Shown here piece after piece: positions 16,068 to 29,850 of a stretch of 60,109 nucleotides of DNA. The notes beneath the pieces are model-generated. The model ran no database searches. It was given only the letters and a program-made list of their open reading frames with translations, and had not been told where the DNA came from. A program made the position numbers and the translations under genes. The stretch is taken from positions 1 to 60,109 of IMG/VR virus record IMGVR_UViG_3300005842_000013, one strand, 5' to 3'. Origin of the DNA: a virus. Position 1 is the first letter of the stretch. Each line of letters opens with the position of its first letter.

Positions 16068-16670
16068 CTAGTCTTGTTTAGAAGAATTGGACGCCACAGG
16101 CGACGACACTCGAAGTTCGTGAGCTAGCCCCGCTTCCCATACCCGATGGACCACATCTAACAGGTCGTGCAGACACGAGCTTGGATCCCGTGCGACTTCC
16201 GAGCCCGAAAAATGCAAGACCTTCCAGCCAGCCCCCTGAAGCAATCTGTCGCGCGTATTTCGATACGCGACTTGTTCCTTTGTCCTCTCATGAAAGTCAT
16301 GCCCATCCAGCTCCACGGCCATCCGTGGAATCTCAAAGCCGCAGTCTCGCAGCCTTGCAGCGCGCTCAGAACTGCGCGGCACGACTTCGAAATCGACTCG
16401 ATATACCGTGCCGTTCATAATCACGTCCTGTTGCGGCACCAGTGTCCACGCATAAGGACCATCGTCGCTCATGCCAGCCGAATCAAACAGGTGCTGGAAT
16501 GACACCCACCAGAAGAGAAACACGGCTTCGATCGGACTCTCGCATTTACTTCGCAGTGACGGAAGAATCTTCAAGAGATTGGATTTAAAAACATCGGCGC
16601 AATGACTTGAGGCCTCCTCGATGTTTCGCATCACTAGGTCACAATTGTGCCAATCGTCTCGTAAGGCCAT
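16068..16670 (-). CDS. DUF559/Vsr-like nuclease-fold protein
   Basis: A 200-residue protein. CESPIEAVFLFWW (about 42-54) gives the early Glu, YRVDFEVVP the acidic strand, and VELDGHDFHE, followed by DRLLQGAGWKVLHFSGSEV, matches the Vsr/DUF559 restriction-endonuclease-like fold. These proteins cut or bind DNA; the substrate is unknown. An AAGGAGAG ribosome site precedes ATG 16670. The gene lies downstream of a hairpin at 16776-16797. Confidence 0.72.
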   Translation of the reverse strand: MALRDDWHNCDLVMRNIEEASSHCADVFKSNLLKILPSLRSKCESPIEAVFLFWWVSFQHLFDSAGMSDDGPYAWTLVPQQDVIMNGTVYRVDFEVVPRSSERAARLRDCGFEIPRMAVELDGHDFHERTKEQVAYRNTRDRLLQGAGWKVLHFSGSEVARDPSSCLHDLLDVVHRVWEAGLAHELRVSSPVASNSSKQD

Positions 16671-21658: not shown

Positions 21659-21933
21659 GCCGCCTCCAACGCCTTGATGGCGAGATCTGGTACGCCACCC
21701 GCTTTCATCCAGCGAGCCACGGCTTGCTTCGTGTAGAGACGCTGACGATGCTTGCGACCGAGGCCGAAGTTCGGCGAGGGATCCGGCGTGCATCGAATGC
21801 CAGTTCTCCGCTCCAACGCGATCAACTCTTCGAGATACCGCGGGTTGCGACCGATCAACTTGCAGATGTCTTTGTTGGTCAGCAAGGCATCGTCGGCGTA
21901 GTCGCTGAGCTTCGCGGTGGGCATGCCTCTCAT
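21655..21933 (-). CDS. HTH DNA-binding protein (excisionase/MerR-like)
   Basis: A 92-residue protein. LLTNKDICKLIGRNPRYLEELI resembles the helix-turn-helix of small MerR/excisionase-like phage proteins, and LYTKQAVARWMKAGG completes the wing-like end. It may be an excisionase or a regulator. Coupled by ATGA overlap to the RNA ligase gene. No direct site was identified. Confidence 0.55.
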   Translation of the reverse strand: MRGMPTAKLSDYADDALLTNKDICKLIGRNPRYLEELIALERRTGIRCTPDPSPNFGLGRKHRQRLYTKQAVARWMKAGGVPDLAIKALEAA

Positions 21934-22598
21934 GACACCACCTCAGCTCTGGGCTTGGATCGCGCCTGAGATTTCGGCTCTTCATCCTTTTCGAGTGTTT
22001 TCTTGAAGAGCACGTTTCCGGCTGTGTGATAGATCACGATCCCCTCCGGCTTCATAAAACCCGGAGACGCATGTGAGCCCGTCAGATGCAGATGGTCAAG
22101 AATGTCAGGGCAGTGACCCATGAACGAATCGAACGAGCCGCGGTAGAGCACCGGCACGACATGGCAGCAATCCGGTCTGGCAACCGGGAACTTCACCGCA
22201 TCACGGTCGTCGGACCAGCGTGCGACATTGAATAGGCTAAAGCGCTTCTCACCCTTGGTCAGCCCGTAGCCGCGCTGGATCCCTGATCCCCACCATTCAC
22301 CGAAATGACGCCCCTCGCCGAGATCGAATAGCTCACTCGCGTGTTCGCCGACCCATCTCGCGAATCCGAAGTTGTCATCCTTCGGCGTCAAGTAATGGTT
22401 TCTAGATCCGGCCAGCATCACATAACCGCTCGTCGGATCATGGGCGCCACTCATATTTCGAGCGATCACCAACTCGTCGTCGATGTCAGCGGTCGGCAGC
22501 GTGATAAAAACCTGTGCGTTGGTGCCGTCGATCTTCTCGGTCACAACCACATCTCGACTCAGGCGCGCAATCTTCGCGAACTCTACGAACTCGCTCAT
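21930..22598 (-). CDS. RNA ligase (T4 Rnl2-like)
   Basis: A 222-residue nucleotidyl-transferase-fold protein. Motif I EKIDGTNAQVF (adenylated Lys about 22), motif Ia ARNMSGAH, motif III HFGEWWGSGIQRGYG, motif IV PEGIVIYH and motif V LFKKTLE are all present in the right order, as in Rnl2-type RNA ligases. It would seal nicked RNA through an adenylate intermediate. A phage use is repair of cut tRNA. ATGA overlaps on both sides. Confidence 0.88.
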   Translation of the reverse strand: MSEFVEFAKIARLSRDVVVTEKIDGTNAQVFITLPTADIDDELVIARNMSGAHDPTSGYVMLAGSRNHYLTPKDDNFGFARWVGEHASELFDLGEGRHFGEWWGSGIQRGYGLTKGEKRFSLFNVARWSDDRDAVKFPVARPDCCHVVPVLYRGSFDSFMGHCPDILDHLHLTGSHASPGFMKPEGIVIYHTAGNVLFKKTLEKDEEPKSQARSKPRAEVVS

Positions 22599-23083
22599 CG
22601 CTGGCCTCCAGAGACAGCCTGCAGCTTGCGATCGTTGTTCGCACCGAGTCGCATGCGTTCCGCTTCGATCGCGCCCTGGATGCAGGCCATCGCTTCGCGG
22701 CCTTCTTTCTCCATGCGCGCGAGACGCGTGACGCTGGGCTCACCTTCCGATGCGGCGATCACGAACTCGCCGAACTCACGAATCGATGACCCGATGTCGC
22801 GTCCTGAGGCATAGCGCGCATCTGGGATACGGAAGATGGCGCACTGCGCGAGACCGGCGATGTAGTCAAGCACCGCCAGATTGCGCAGCGCCGGCAGGAT
22901 CGCGAGGAACTTGCGCATCGATGGCCAGTCGGAGGTTGCTTCGTCGGTCGTCGCGCACAGCGAGGAGTGATTCATCCCGGCGATATCGGCGAGCGCTTTG
23001 ATCGACGGCCCGTCCGCATCGTGCAGCGAGGTGAACCATGCCGCTTTGAAGCCTTCCGCTTTCGCCGTAGTTTTCGAATCCAT
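22595..23083 (-). CDS. CII-like regulatory protein
   Basis: A 162-residue protein. IKALADIAGMNHSSLCATTD..., followed by RKFLAILPALRNLAVLDYIAGLAQC, follows the pattern of the phage regulatory protein CII-type family (HTH followed by a helical part). C-terminal residues are helical. First gene after the switch in the leftward operon, as for cII. Function inferred from pattern and position. Confidence 0.55.
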   Translation of the reverse strand: MDSKTTAKAEGFKAAWFTSLHDADGPSIKALADIAGMNHSSLCATTDEATSDWPSMRKFLAILPALRNLAVLDYIAGLAQCAIFRIPDARYASGRDIGSSIREFGEFVIAASEGEPSVTRLARMEKEGREAMACIQGAIEAERMRLGANNDRKLQAVSGGQR

Positions 23084-23130: not shown

Positions 23131-23364
23131 ATGAAACTGGTGCGCCTCGTCCCCGTGTCGCTGACTGACCTCTCACCACCAGATCTCGATCAAGCCCTTG
23201 CGATTGCCCAAGCCCGCGTCCGTGCTCGCCACCGTTCCCTCGTCGATGCAGTCGATTGGATGGAAGCGGTTTATGCGGAGCAGGAACGCCGCGGCCTCAC
23301 GCCACCTGTGACTGCTGATCAGGCGCCGGCACATCTGCCACGGGAAAGATCTCTTCAGCGGTGA
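23131..23364 (+). CDS. Hypothetical small helical protein, uncertain
   Basis: A 77-residue frame: DLDQALAIAQARVRARHRSLVDAVDWMEAVYAEQERRG is a good amphipathic helix. Codon choice looks coding. There is no ribosome site, and the 3' end overlaps the antisense HTH gene by 68 bases, so it may be a shadow. Included with low confidence. Confidence 0.35.
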   Translation: MKLVRLVPVSLTDLSPPDLDQALAIAQARVRARHRSLVDAVDWMEAVYAEQERRGLTPPVTADQAPAHLPRERSLQR

Positions 23365-23548
23365 TGCCCTTGAGCCCCGCACGCTGCAGCGCACGCACGA
23401 TCCGCACGACCGTCTCGTACGCCGGCCGCTTGTTCCGCTTGTTTTCGATCTCGTGGATGGTCCCCTTGGCGAGGCCAGCCAGTCTGTCCAGATCCCGCTG
23501 GTTGAGGCCAGCGAGCAGTCGCGCCCGCTCCAAGCTCAATACGTCCAT
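23297..23548 (-). CDS. Cro-like HTH regulator, head of leftward operon
   Basis: An 83-residue XRE-type HTH protein: LERARLLAGLNQRDLDRLAGLAKGTIHEIENKR is a complete five-helix core start. The protein is the first gene behind the strong leftward promoter at 23555-23583. There is no ribosome site and the A of ATG sits at the expected +1, suggesting a leaderless transcript. Acts probably as the Cro counterpart of the divergent repressor. Confidence 0.78.
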   Translation of the reverse strand: MDVLSLERARLLAGLNQRDLDRLAGLAKGTIHEIENKRNKRPAYETVVRIVRALQRAGLKGITAEEIFPVADVPAPDQQSQVA

Positions 23549-23583
23549 GACGGAATAATACGGATATACAGGCAGCTTGTCCA
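23549..23583 (-). promoter_or_regulatory. Leftward early promoter (leaderless) with operator copy 1
   Basis: On the minus strand TGGACA (23578-23583), 17 bases, TATTAT (23555-23560), then 6 bases to ATG at 23548. Both hexamers match the consensus at 5 of 6 positions. The spacer and -10 hold the operator copy CTGTATATCCGTAT (23558-23571). With initiation about 7 bases after the -10, the transcript would begin at the ATG. Confidence 0.75.
23558..23571 (-). promoter_or_regulatory. Operator copy 1, leftward side
   Basis: CTGTATATCCGTAT on the minus strand. It matches the rightward copy CTGATATATCCGTAT on the plus strand (23661-23675), so the two sites are inverted about the centre of the switch. 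A perfect palindrome with the same TCCGTAT half-site occurs at 28470-28486. Repressor or Cro binding is inferred. Confidence 0.65.
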
Positions 23584-23653
23584 GAGGAAAATGAGGCTTT
23601 GGCAATAAATTATGCGGTTTGGGCGTAACTAGGCGTATATAGGCAACTTAGCC

Positions 23654-23689
23654 TTGCATTCTGATATATCCGTATCGCACAATCTGCCT
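23654..23689 (+). promoter_or_regulatory. Rightward repressor promoter with operator copy 2
   Basis: A weak -35 TTGCAT (23654-23659) and -10 CACAAT (23678-23683) are spaced by 18 bases, with 6 bases to the GTG at 23690. The operator CTGATATATCCGTAT (23661-23675) lies between them. The layout mirrors the leftward promoter: operator in the spacer and a start codon at the expected transcript start. Confidence 0.5.
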
Positions 23690-24148
23690 GTGCAGCATTC
23701 TGTCGGGGCAGTCATCAGGGCCGTGCGTGAAGCCGAACCGTTCTGGAATCAGACGGAGCTGGCGCAGCGTGCTGATGTGGCCATCAGTACGGTGGTGAAC
23801 ATCGAAAAGGGCCGGAATTTCGAGCAGGATTCGCTGCGCAAACTCGTGGCGGCACTGAAAGAAAAGGATCGCGACCGTAGGTTGCAGGCCTTGGTTGCGC
23901 CGGAACCACCCAGAACAGCGATCTCAACTACTGACCTTGTTGCAGCGGGGCGGAACATAGCGACAGGAGTAGCCGAGATGCCAGATGCGGAGGACCCAGA
24001 TTTCCAATTGGTTCGAGCGATCTACATACGCACCAAGGCCCTCGGCCCTGGTGAGCACGAGGAGTTCATGCGACGTGTTCTGGCGGCGGGGAACGTACGT
24101 CGTGTAGAGGGGAAGGAGCGACACGTAAAAAAAGCGAGGAGGCGATGA
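23690..24148 (+). CDS. Phage repressor (XRE-type HTH, no peptidase domain)
   Basis: A 152-residue protein with an HTH (NQTELAQRADVAISTVVNIEKGR, residues about 19-41) and a helical C-terminal part with no S24 protease motif. It is transcribed opposite to the Cro-like gene across a shared operator region, so is the likely lysogeny repressor. GTG 23690 is preferred over the TTG at 23654, which would put the operator inside the gene. Stop overlaps the PAS gene start (ATGA). Confidence 0.8.
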   Translation: MQHSVGAVIRAVREAEPFWNQTELAQRADVAISTVVNIEKGRNFEQDSLRKLVAALKEKDRDRRLQALVAPEPPRTAISTTDLVAAGRNIATGVAEMPDAEDPDFQLVRAIYIRTKALGPGEHEEFMRRVLAAGNVRRVEGKERHVKKARRR

Positions 24149-24594
24149 CCACGCCTTCGTCGACGTTACACGTCATTCGGTGCGGCGGTGGTCGCGGACC
24201 TACATGGACGGGCACATGCAGGCCTGCTGACGCACCGAAAGACGCGATGCTGACGCGGTATCAGTGGACTGCGTCATTGCAGGGGTATGTCTTGTGGATT
24301 GACCCTGCTTGGGAACGGTGGATGGGATTATCTCCAGGCTCGTGGCGCCGGGACGCGTGGGTGCAATCCATCGCGCCCAGCGACCGCGAGCAAGTGGTGG
24401 CGCATCATCTGCGGAGTCTGCGATATCGCGCGGCGGCGACGTTTACCTGTCACGTCGTCCGCAACGGGACACAGCCTCGTGTGCAGATGACGGTGATTCC
24501 AGTCGTACTGGCGGGACGAGTCGCGGGCGCTCGCGGTTGGATCGACGTGGTAGCGGCGTCGATCAGGCAAGAATTTTCGGTCAATCGCGGATAA
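24145..24594 (+). CDS. PAS-domain protein coupled to repressor
   Basis: A 149-residue protein. YQWTASLQGYVLWIDPAWER, then SPGSWRRDAWVQSIAPSDRE, then FTCHVVRNG...VTVIPVVLAG...GWIDVV, is the strand-helix-strand order of a PAS fold, in particular the variant found before histidine kinases. It has no output domain. It overlaps the repressor gene as ATGA. A ligand, redox or partner-binding sensor is inferred; PAS domains are rare in phages. Confidence 0.7.
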   Translation: MTTPSSTLHVIRCGGGRGPTWTGTCRPADAPKDAMLTRYQWTASLQGYVLWIDPAWERWMGLSPGSWRRDAWVQSIAPSDREQVVAHHLRSLRYRAAATFTCHVVRNGTQPRVQMTVIPVVLAGRVAGARGWIDVVAASIRQEFSVNRG

Positions 24595-24627: not shown

Positions 24628-24658
24628 GTCAGGTGGGGCACGGTTGCCCCAGTCTGAC
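24628..24658 (+). terminator. Stable hairpin after PAS gene
   Basis: GTCAG (24628-24632), GGGGCA (24635-24640), loop CGGT, TGCCCC (24645-24650) and CTGAC (24654-24658) form a two-part stem. It lies 34 bases after the PAS stop. No T-run follows. It may act with the next hairpin in termination or mRNA stability. Confidence 0.4.
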
Positions 24659-24684: not shown

Positions 24685-24722
24685 GCTGAGGGCTCGTCCT
24701 GCAACGGTCCTCAGCCATTTTT
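24685..24722 (+). terminator. Rho-independent-like terminator after repressor-PAS operon
   Basis: GCTGAGG (24685-24691) pairs with CCTCAGC (24709-24715) and is followed by CATTTTT. The loop is large at 17 bases. It would separate the repressor-PAS unit from the lysogenic conversion genes. Confidence 0.55.
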
Positions 24723-24779: not shown

Positions 24780-25013
24780 ATGTCCAAAAACGCGGACGGT
24801 GTCGGGCGGAGTACGCAAACAAAGACCTCAATCCTCGTGGAATCCATTCGCCGGCTGCTGTGGTTCAGCGCAACAATCGGCGCCATCGCATCCGTGGTCA
24901 TTGCGGTCAAGAACGTCGGGCAACCCGATCCATTGACTGGCCTCGTCATCTCGTTTTCGCTCGGGCCCTATGTCGCGGCACGGGCGTGGGATGAACTCTT
25001 TCCTGGAGAATAA
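24780..25013 (+). CDS. Small membrane protein
   Basis: A 77-residue protein with a basic N-terminus, one hydrophobic helix (residues about 26-44, LLWFSATIGAIASVVIAV) and a second weakly hydrophobic part (LVISFSLGPYVAARAW). Not recognised. The next gene begins 3 bases after its stop; it heads the block between repressor and integrase. Confidence 0.6.
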   Translation: MSKNADGVGRSTQTKTSILVESIRRLLWFSATIGAIASVVIAVKNVGQPDPLTGLVISFSLGPYVAARAWDELFPGE

Positions 25014-26445: not shown

Positions 26446-27294
26446 ATGACGCCCGATCTGTCACTCATCATCTGCACGCACAACCGTGCGTCCGCGCTCC
26501 GACACTGCCTCCAAGTCCTGACCCATCAGCGGTATAACGCGCGGCGGTGGGAACTGGTCATCGTGGAGAACGCCTGCACCGATGATACGAGCGTCGTTGT
26601 GGCTGAGATCGAAGGCCATCTGGCTTATACATTCGTGCGCGAACCACGGATCGGCCAAGCGCGCGCCCGCAATGCCGGCGTCCGAGCGGCTAGGGCCCCA
26701 ATCCTCGCGTTCACCGACGATGACTGCTACGTCTCGACCGATTACGTGCTGCGCATGATGGACGCGTTTCAGTGTCCGACGATCGGCTACGTCGGTGGAC
26801 AGGTCCAGCTCCATGATCACACCGATGCGCCCGAGACGATCCAGACGCGCCCCTACCCGCTGGAGTTCGGTCCCGGACTGATCATGCATCCCGGTGATAT
26901 CCACGGGGCGAACATGGCCTGCCGGCGAGCGGTGTGGGAGCGGATCGGCGGGTTCGATGAGAGGCTCGGCCCTGGCACCAGGTTCGTCTGCGATGACGTC
27001 GACTTCCTCTGTCGGGCCTCGCTAGCCGGCTACGATGGGCTGTATGATCCACTTCCGCTGGTGCGGCATCATCACGGACGTAAACCTGGACGTGATGTCG
27101 ATCGCCTCCACAGGGCCTACGCACGGGGACGTGGGGCCTACTACATGAAGGGCTGTCTGCATTCTGAGGCACGGCGGGAATTCGCGGCCCATTGGTACTG
27201 GCATCTGCGGACACAGGCGAAGCGTCGGCGCTTCGGCGAGATGGCGCACGAGTTGGTGGCGGCGGCAGAATTCGCAGTGAGGTATCCGTGGTAA
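26446..27294 (+). CDS. Family 2 glycosyltransferase
   Basis: A 282-residue GT-A protein: LSLIICTHNRASALRHCL (5-22), LVIVENACTDDTS, then the metal-binding TDDDCYV (about 91-97) and later FDERLGPGTRFVCDDVDF, the standard GT2 path. No membrane helices, so it transfers a sugar in the cytoplasm, onto lipid carrier, protein or glycan. Placed between a secreted protein and the integrase, it may modify host surface sugars in lysogens. Confidence 0.85.
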   Translation: MTPDLSLIICTHNRASALRHCLQVLTHQRYNARRWELVIVENACTDDTSVVVAEIEGHLAYTFVREPRIGQARARNAGVRAARAPILAFTDDDCYVSTDYVLRMMDAFQCPTIGYVGGQVQLHDHTDAPETIQTRPYPLEFGPGLIMHPGDIHGANMACRRAVWERIGGFDERLGPGTRFVCDDVDFLCRASLAGYDGLYDPLPLVRHHHGRKPGRDVDRLHRAYARGRGAYYMKGCLHSEARREFAAHWYWHLRTQAKRRRFGEMAHELVAAAEFAVRYPW

Positions 27295-28424
27295 CAGCAC
27301 GCGGGAAGCGCACGCTCATCTCTGACGGCCTGTATTCCGACGCGATCGGACTCTCAGCCGTCGTGAAAGTCGGCAAGCGTCAGAAGGAGAAGCGCTTCCC
27401 GAAAGGCACGCCGATCAAAGAGATCCGCGAGTGGCAGACGAACATGCGCGCGGCCCTCACCAAGAAGCGCGGCAAGGCGAGAGGCCCCGTAGGACGCGGG
27501 ACATTCGCCTCAGATGTCGAGCGCTTCCTGACCACCGTGACGAAACGTCCCAGCTATGGATCGGCGCAAGCGTGCTTGAATGCGTGGACGGAAGCCTTCG
27601 GGGATCGGCGGCGATCGACCATCACCCTCGCTGACTATCAAACCGTGATGGATGGCTGGCAACGGACGGAAGAACATCCCGACGGACGCTATTCCGGCTC
27701 GATGTTGAATCACTGCAAGGATTGGCTGGTCGAACTCTATCGCACGCTGGACGAATGCGACGATGCCGACAACGTGGCGACGAAGCTCCGACGACACGCA
27801 CAAGCCCCAGCGGAACCACGCGCCATTCCCGATGAGATCGTCGATGAGATCCTGGACGCGATGCTGCCCAGCAAGGCCAGAGCGTGCTGTAAGGTGCTGG
27901 CGCATGTCGGGATGCCCCCAGCCCGTCAGCGTCGGCTCAAGCCTACGCAGCTCGATCTGAAGAACAAGACGGTCTTCCTCGTCCGCCGACGTAAAGGCGG
28001 AGGCACCGAAGAGAAGACCTTCCCGCTCACCGCAAAAGGTGTAGCGGCCTTCGAAGAGTTCGTGGCGATGAACGCGTGGGGTGGGGTGACCAAAGAATCG
28101 ATCTATACCTGCTTCCTGCGCGGCGTTGGCGCGGCGAATAGGGCGCGCGCGAAGGCCGGGCTCCCGCTCATCCCCCCACTGCGGCCCTACGATCTCCGCC
28201 ACACGTTCGGCGCCAAGGTGTACCGCAAGACGGGCGACCTCGGCGCGGCTGCCGCATTGCTCGATGTGACGCTGGAAACCGCGAAGCGCTACACGCTATC
28301 GGCGGTACCCGTGCGACTTGCCAAAGCCGTTGAAGCACTGGACGACGAGGCCACGCCACCAGCCTCAGAATCCCAGCCAAAAGAACCGGCCAAGCCGGCC
28401 CTGCAGATCGTGTCTAGGCGCTAG
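27288..28424 (+). CDS. int: Tyrosine recombinase (phage integrase)
   Basis: A 378-residue protein. The catalytic domain has RPYDLRHTFGAKV and a C-terminal ETAKRYTLSAV with the likely nucleophile Tyr. The usual first His of HxLRH is Tyr here, and the Gly-His before the Tyr box is Leu-Asp, so this is a divergent member. It integrates phage DNA at attP. GTG 27288 overlaps the previous stop and follows a GAGG site. Confidence 0.87.
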   Translation: MVTARGKRTLISDGLYSDAIGLSAVVKVGKRQKEKRFPKGTPIKEIREWQTNMRAALTKKRGKARGPVGRGTFASDVERFLTTVTKRPSYGSAQACLNAWTEAFGDRRRSTITLADYQTVMDGWQRTEEHPDGRYSGSMLNHCKDWLVELYRTLDECDDADNVATKLRRHAQAPAEPRAIPDEIVDEILDAMLPSKARACCKVLAHVGMPPARQRRLKPTQLDLKNKTVFLVRRRKGGGTEEKTFPLTAKGVAAFEEFVAMNAWGGVTKESIYTCFLRGVGAANRARAKAGLPLIPPLRPYDLRHTFGAKVYRKTGDLGAAAALLDVTLETAKRYTLSAVPVRLAKAVEALDDEATPPASESQPKEPAKPALQIVSRR

Positions 28425-28877: not shown

Positions 28878-29068
28878 AACCAGCTTCGATTCAGGCCCTC
28901 CGAAAGAGGCTACGCGAGAACACGGCTCAGTTCGGCGCTAGGTTTGGTCGGTCTGGACGCACAATTGAGGATTGGGAGCAGGGCCGTGCTCATCCAGACC
29001 GACTCGTTCAGCGCTTGATGCAGGAACTCGCCACGGGCCTTGAGAAGAACAAGAAGGGACGACGATGA
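28868..29068 (+). CDS. XRE-like HTH protein
   Basis: A 66-residue protein. IQALRKRLRENTAQFGARFG, then RSGRTIEDWEQGRAHPDRLV, matches an XRE-type HTH in which the third helix reads TIEDWEQGR. The basic tail ends KNKKGRR. It may autoregulate the accessory operon or pair with the upstream gene. Confidence 0.65.
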   Translation: MALKPASIQALRKRLRENTAQFGARFGRSGRTIEDWEQGRAHPDRLVQRLMQELATGLEKNKKGRR

Positions 29069-29850
29069 GCGAACTCGCGATTCCATATCGGCCTATCCTG
29101 CGATCGGTCGTGGGATCAACCGTGCATGGCCTGAACGTCCAAGATGGGATCGAAGATCGCGACGAGATGGCCGTCTGCATCGAGGACTACGACGCCGCGC
29201 AGGGGCTGTCGGCGCCATTCGAGCAGTACATCTACCGGACCGCAGCCATTCGTGAGGGCAAGCATGACGCGAAGTCGCGCGGCGGCGATCTCGACCTCGT
29301 CGTCTACAGCCTGCGGAAATGGCTACGGCTCGCCCTAAACGGCAATCCGACCATTCTGCTCCTGCTGTTCGCTCCGCCGATGGAGAGTGACGCCCGCGGT
29401 TCTCAGCTTCGTGAACTAGCGCCGTCCATCGTGAGTCGTCGTGCCGGCCGCGCGTTCCTCGGCTACCTCGAAGCGCAGCGTCAACGACTCGTCGGCGAGC
29501 GCGGCGGCAAAGACGTCAACCGTCCAGAGTTGGTCGAGAAATACGGCTTTGACACCAAGTACGCTATGCACATGCTCCGTCTCGGTTTTCAGGGCGTCGA
29601 GTTGATGGAGACTGGCAAGTTGACCCTGCCGATGTGCGAGCCAGAGCGATTGTGGCTCCGAGGTGTGCGGACCGGCGAATCCAGTCTTCAGGAAGTGCTG
29701 ACGCGAGCTGGCGAACTCAGGGCACGGCTTGAAGACCTGCTCGACACATCACCATTGCCCGAGAAGCCGGATTACGACCTGGTCGATCGCTGGATGCTGA
29801 ACACCTACTGGGAAACGTGGAAAGCTCGTTCGTTCCAGTTCGCAGCATAA
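29065..29850 (+). CDS. Predicted nucleotidyltransferase (DNA pol beta-like, RlaP-type)
   Basis: A 261-residue protein. SVVGSTVHGLNV, followed by DGIEDRDEMAVCIEDY, is the GS...G...D..D-type core of minimal nucleotidyltransferases, and the layout resembles the RNA-repair-associated group that often accompanies RNA ligases. The C-terminal half is helical. The phage also encodes an RNA ligase at 21930-22598. Substrate is not known. Confidence 0.68.
   Translation: MSELAIPYRPILRSVVGSTVHGLNVQDGIEDRDEMAVCIEDYDAAQGLSAPFEQYIYRTAAIREGKHDAKSRGGDLDLVVYSLRKWLRLALNGNPTILLLLFAPPMESDARGSQLRELAPSIVSRRAGRAFLGYLEAQRQRLVGERGGKDVNRPELVEKYGFDTKYAMHMLRLGFQGVELMETGKLTLPMCEPERLWLRGVRTGESSLQEVLTRAGELRARLEDLLDTSPLPEKPDYDLVDRWMLNTYWETWKARSFQFAA

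Follow-up and report, generated by a model that had tools for sequence, protein, structure and literature searches.

The timing of induction in prophages whose repressors do not cleave themselves is an open question for most environmental phages. We have investigated this question at a locus in which a phage repressor gene runs into the gene for a PAS protein, an arrangement initially annotated as a lysogeny repressor translationally coupled to a sensor, through which the lysis-lysogeny decision could respond to a ligand, redox or light signal rather than to RecA. The window analysed is the entire IMG/VR record IMGVR_UViG_3300005842_000013, 60,109 bases with 61% G+C. The same gene pair is present in one other IMG/VR contig, IMGVR_UViG_3300045391_001905, here termed the relative.

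The phage genome

Profile searches detect terminase, portal, DnaB, ERF, tape measure and integrase proteins encoded in the window, indicating that it derives from a temperate tailed phage. Terminase matches are at most 41% identical and are to enterobacterial phages. An RNA ligase (PF09414, 53.7 bits; 21930–22598, minus strand) adjoins the CII-like gene described below and an RlaP-type nucleotidyltransferase (PF10127, 86.2 bits) is encoded at 29065–29850 on the plus strand, which suggests RNA repair by the phage. The early region also encodes a DUF559/MTES_1575-type endonuclease (16068–16670, minus strand).

The immunity region and its repressor

The features which identify the lysogeny switch are as follows.

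22595–23083, minus strand: CII-like activator gene (phrog_101, CII-like activator, E 1.1e-9)
23297–23548, minus strand: Cro-like HTH gene, divergent from the repressor (HTH_3, 32.9 bits)
23555–23583, minus strand: lytic-side promoter-like site, TGGACA-17-TATTAT (consensus scan, 10 of 12 matches)
23558–23568, no strand assigned: operator-like site 1, ATACGGATATA, overlapping the lytic -10 hexamer
23665–23675, no strand assigned: operator-like site 2, TATATCCGTAT, site 1 in inverted copy
23690–24148, plus strand: lysogeny repressor (HTH_3, 25.4 bits against a cut-off of 23; place in the divergent switch)
27192–28424, plus strand: integrase (phrog_1, integrase, E 1.3e-18), marking a temperate phage

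Together, these features make up the immunity region of a temperate phage. Its predicted layout resembles that of lambda CI, Cro and CII, with divergent repressor and Cro-like HTH genes, operator-like repeats between them, a CII-like gene past cro and, elsewhere in the genome, an integrase. The CII-like gene, which is 82% identical in the relative, also matches Phage_CP76 at 20.6 bits, under the cut-off of 26. In the operator-like sites, TACGGATATA at 23559 recurs in inverted form as TATATCCGTA at 23665, and each occurs once in 60 kb. The consensus scan yielded one promoter-like site against 0.8 expected, making it weak evidence by itself. The likely ATG of the Cro-like gene is at 23548, within an open frame that begins with TTG at 23605, and is separated from the promoter-like -10 hexamer by ∼7 nt (23548–23560, minus strand), so that the Cro-like mRNA may be leaderless.

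The HTH half of the repressor occupies ∼23717–23860. GTG at 23690 is a possible start and an in-frame TTG at 23654 an alternative, neither having a clear ribosome-binding site. Profile searches returned no peptidase family match for the repressor, distinguishing it from the self-cleaving CI/LexA type with Peptidase_S24, and detected neither Peptidase_S24 nor Peptidase_M78 in the whole record or in the relative, controls being positive. Neither genome thus shows a sign of RecA-aided self-cleavage or of cleavage by an ImmA-type protease. Both properties initially attributed to the repressor are supported, the absence of a self-cleavage domain by these searches and its identity as an HTH lysogeny repressor by the HTH_3 match combined with the divergent Cro-like HTH gene, the CII-like gene, the operator-like repeats and the integrase. 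In contrast to lambda CI, it has no S24 domain, and a PAS gene overlaps the end of its coding sequence. A reading of the locus as a toxin-antitoxin or defence system was rejected, the searches having returned only weak generic HTH matches.

The PAS protein

24145–24594, plus strand: PAS protein (PAS_3; structure model and fold matches)

The PAS core corresponds to residues 37–140 (24253–24564). The PAS_3 match, with 25.7 bits for a cut-off of 25.6, is marginal, and PAS_4 scores 20.6 bits, under its cut-off; the fold was therefore checked with a structure model. The model was built on an alignment of 12 phage PAS proteins, a two-sequence version being too poor, and has a mean pLDDT of 69.8, with ∼80–90 over residues 41–120 and low confidence over the first 35 residues. 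Its strands and helices follow one another as in PAS domains, which are also the best matches in the PDB (Foldseek E 7e-6; VIA Z up to 14.1 over 109 residues), and its best viral fold matches include proteins named PAS domain. The PAS superfamily is recognised by a profile match and by a fold in which a five-stranded sheet has helices between its B and G strands, and the profile match and the model both place the protein in it. The annotated PAS fold, which a profile search could have rejected, is thus supported by profile, model and PDB matches alike, and no output domain was found, also in agreement with the initial annotation. By eye, neither the LOV light-sensor cysteine motif nor a haem histidine at the FixL position is apparent, and LOV and FixL-type haem sensing are therefore disfavoured; no ligand-binding signature was identified by eye in the protein. 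Comparison of the window with the relative indicates purifying selection on the PAS gene, with dN/dS of 0.36 overall and 0.27 in the core.

Heteroimmune exchange within the repressor gene

23921–24148, plus strand: repressor C-terminal domain, 75 residues (∼87% amino acid identity with the relative)

Nucleotide similarity between the window and the relative extends through the CII-like gene to ∼23275, is lost to 23920 and returns at 23921. The dissimilar block, ∼23275–23920, holds the Cro-like gene, the operator-like sites and the DNA-binding half of the repressor. In the relative, the block encodes other HTH proteins, the Cro-like counterpart being an unrelated HTH_31 protein and the HTH match of the repressor being weak and below the cut-off, and carries operator-like palindromes of its own, two copies of GGACGCGTCC and a partial copy. 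As homology resumes inside the repressor gene, the last 75 residues of the repressor, which were found in only these two phages, are common to both, as are the overlap with the PAS gene and the PAS gene itself (65% identical). The two phages are related by a heteroimmune exchange with its breakpoint, as placed by the alignment at 23921, in the repressor linker, and resemble heteroimmune lambdoid phages in the joint exchange of the DNA-binding part and the operators.

Retention of the PAS gene with the repressor C-terminal domain is consistent with a partnership between the two, although it does not argue for one specifically. The shared block runs past the PAS gene into a gene for a 77-residue protein, which has 89% nucleotide identity compared with 72% for the PAS gene, and since the conserved block extends to this better-kept gene, PAS retention may only mark the end of the recombination tract. 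The 77-residue protein (24780–25013, plus strand), located directly after the repressor-PAS operon, contains a hydrophobic stretch, has a dN/dS of 0.1 against the relative and has no family match.

Predicted coupling of repressor and PAS expression

24135–24162, plus strand: RNA hairpin, the loop of which begins with the PAS start codon (-13.5 kcal/mol, z -2.2)
24685–24722, plus strand: terminator-like hairpin with a U-run, at the end of the repressor-PAS operon (-19.4 kcal/mol, z -5.1)

The repressor stop codon, TGA at 24146–24148, overlaps the PAS start codon, ATG at 24145, in the sequence ATGA, confirming the overlap reported initially, and the same ATGA recurs in the second phage. The junction hairpin is the strongest among 55 gene starts, and its equivalent in the relative is predicted at -14.5 kcal/mol, z -4.2. 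Combined, the overlap in two phages and the strength of the start-site hairpin support the proposal of coupled expression. The pairing of repressor and PAS genes is more than chance, judging from the recurrence of overlap and gene order in a second phage and from the purifying selection on the PAS gene. The terminator-like hairpin after the PAS gene is also present in the relative. A further strong hairpin, around GGGGCACGGTTGCCCC, lies between the PAS gene and the terminator (24628–24658, plus strand; -21 kcal/mol, z -3.2) and has a nearly identical sequence in the relative. The Rfam search returned no RNA family match. The junction element itself has three possible readings, a translational-coupling hairpin, a frameshift signal and an antisense terminator.

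Proposed role of the PAS protein

In the mechanism which we propose, the plus-strand lysogeny operon would make the HTH repressor and then the PAS protein from an overlapping start codon held in a hairpin, and the location of that codon within the repressor gene and the mRNA hairpin suggests that both proteins are made together in the lysogen. The PAS protein would bind the conserved C-terminal domain of the repressor, either as a separate coupled protein or partly as a frameshift fusion, and a small molecule bound by the PAS core would change repressor oligomerisation or DNA binding. PAS control would thereby stand in for RecA-triggered self-cleavage, which the repressor lacks. That the PAS protein senses a small molecule and regulates the repressor as its partner, including the contact, ligand sensing and effect on induction that we infer, is in our estimate about evenly poised between true and false.

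Co-expression by itself is not sufficient to imply the direct partnership which the initial annotation drew from it. In lambda, the lysogenic-conversion gene rexA is co-transcribed with cI, and a repressor operon is one of the few phage transcripts made in a lysogen. The main rival explanation is accordingly that the PAS gene is a lysogenic-conversion gene which shares the repressor transcript and acts on host physiology or superinfection and not on the repressor, a reading which we regard as possible, at a clearly lower probability than the partnership. Its location in an operon active in the lysogen is as expected for such a gene, the conserved 77-residue gene which follows resembles accessory cargo, and the PAS protein evolves faster than the repressor C-terminal domain. 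In addition, a generic PAS_3 DNA motif detects approximately nine stand-alone PAS proteins of ∼150–270 residues in other phages, none of which, by eye, has a recognisable HTH gene immediately upstream; the upstream neighbours include a membrane/coiled-coil protein in one case and lipoprotein-like proteins in two. Stand-alone PAS proteins thus occur in phages away from an evident repressor, indicating that a phage PAS gene need not serve one. However, the overlapping start codon within a hairpin ties PAS output to completed translation of the repressor more tightly than cargo requires, and a repressor without a peptidase domain needs another inducer.

The pair itself is confined to two phages in the searches performed. 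Pattern scans of IMG/VR with PAS and C-terminal-domain queries, which reach close relatives, returned nothing or the one relative, and scans of GTDB genomes, GenBank phages and plasmids, with the same reach, revealed no further members. Among 25 further records with the neighbouring exonuclease gene, neither a PAS_3 match over the cut-off nor the C-terminal domain was detected.

A putative frameshift signal at the junction

24113–24118, plus strand: AAGGAG, Shine-Dalgarno-like, 8 nt before the A7 run (equal spacing in the relative)
24127–24133, plus strand: A_AAA_AAA slippery heptamer in the repressor frame (the only A7/T7 in the window)

The 3′ end of the repressor gene reads GTA AAA AAA GCG AGG AGG CGA TGA. 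The initial annotation had included neither the A7 heptamer and hairpin located here nor the heteroimmune relative. The PAS frame is the -1 frame relative to the repressor and no stop codon intervenes from the A7 run into the PAS gene. At A_AAA_AAA, programmed ribosomal -1 frameshifting, slippage by RNA polymerase or slipped-strand mutation would therefore convert a share of the repressor into an HTH-CTD-PAS fusion of ∼301 residues, giving two forms, with and without the sensor. The parts of a frameshift cassette all appear to be present, namely an in-phase heptamer, an open -1 frame, a 5′ Shine-Dalgarno-like element and a 3′ structure, albeit with atypical hairpin spacing. No other in-frame A_AAA_AAR occurs in the 58 window genes checked, and the 56.8 kb of the relative also contain a single A7/T7, at the same place; one further in-phase A_AAA_AAG occurs there, in an unrelated 151-residue ORF. 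Moreover, Val-Lys-Lys is encoded at this site by rare codons (GTA, 31 of 707 Val codons; AAA, 74 of 351 Lys codons), a choice with a probability of ∼0.002 by codon usage, and AAA AAA is used by none of the 11 other Lys-Lys pairs in the window.

Several features argue against frameshifting. The base of the hairpin is 1–2 nt from the heptamer, closer than the usual -1 stimulator hairpin. All changes between the two phages from the A7 run to the ATG are silent in the repressor frame but alter the -1 frame (SEEA to STKA), the independent ATG of the PAS gene is conserved, and the low synonymous divergence at the junction makes conservation of the element weak evidence. In E. coli, A_AAA_AAA is less shifty than A_AAA_AAG and the stimulatory Shine-Dalgarno spacing is 9–14 nt (PMC5009743), compared with 8 nt here. 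The junction resembles the -1 cassettes of dnaX and IS elements in its Shine-Dalgarno-like element, A-rich slippery heptamer and downstream hairpin, and differs in having A_AAA_AAA and not A_AAA_AAG, a hairpin which is very close, and a predicted product which is a repressor-sensor fusion. Frameshifting of the -1 type is known in a lysogeny regulator gene, cro of phage A2 (PMC5009743); the A2 product is only 12 residues shorter than the standard protein, whereas the putative shift here would add the 149-residue PAS protein. On balance, production of the fusion is possible, with about the same probability as the conversion-gene reading, and it would be compatible with either the partnership or the conversion-gene reading.

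In the third reading, which is unlikely, the hairpin together with A7/T7 would act as an intrinsic terminator of minus-strand, antisense transcription and so shield the lysogeny operon, PAS translation being affected secondarily if at all: the minus strand does read as a stem-loop followed by T7, with textbook form in the relative (-17.3 kcal/mol, U7 directly after the stem), and the window copy is listed by the terminator scan, but the minus-strand stem of the window is mismatched (-10.0 kcal/mol compared with -13.5 on the plus strand), regional terminator-like sites are not above chance (3 against 2.3 expected), and the element sits inside two coding frames, which would leave the in-phase A_AAA_AAA a coincidence.

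Relation to known systems

The proposed partnership between repressor and PAS protein has its closest parallels in two systems. In ICEBs1, the repressor ImmR is controlled by a separate partner, the metalloprotease ImmA (PMC6540685). The present pair resembles ImmR-ImmA, found in ICEBs1 and some prophages, in combining an HTH repressor that does not cleave itself with a separate protein encoded by the element, regulation by the latter being proposed here; it is not a member of that module, as the candidate partner has a PAS fold and is not an M78 metalloprotease. VqmA of vibriophage VP882 is a PAS-domain phage protein tied to a lysis-lysogeny decision independent of DNA damage (PMC12802170), and offers a phage precedent for sensing by a PAS domain. 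The likeness to VqmA-Qtip is confined to use of a PAS domain, sensing being presumed in the phage studied here, and VqmA itself contains a DNA-binding domain and switches on an antirepressor gene, whereas here the PAS domain stands alone beside a repressor. In the limited set of papers searched, no phage repressor is described as being coupled to, or fused with, a stand-alone PAS protein.

Implications for lysogeny

In its most extended form, the proposal would have the phage make two repressor forms by programmed -1 frameshifting, a plain HTH protein and an HTH-PAS fusion, with a ligand-sensing PAS domain tuning lysogeny without RecA and immunity types being swapped through the DNA-binding half alone. 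We consider this combination improbable. The partnership does not depend on it, since the PAS protein could act as a separate coupled protein. The arrangement suggests, short of proof, that a chemical signal and not DNA damage may govern whether the host is killed. If this is true, a PAS protein produced together with the repressor, and possibly fused to it, would constitute a compact and portable wiring of lysogeny to a chemical or redox signal.
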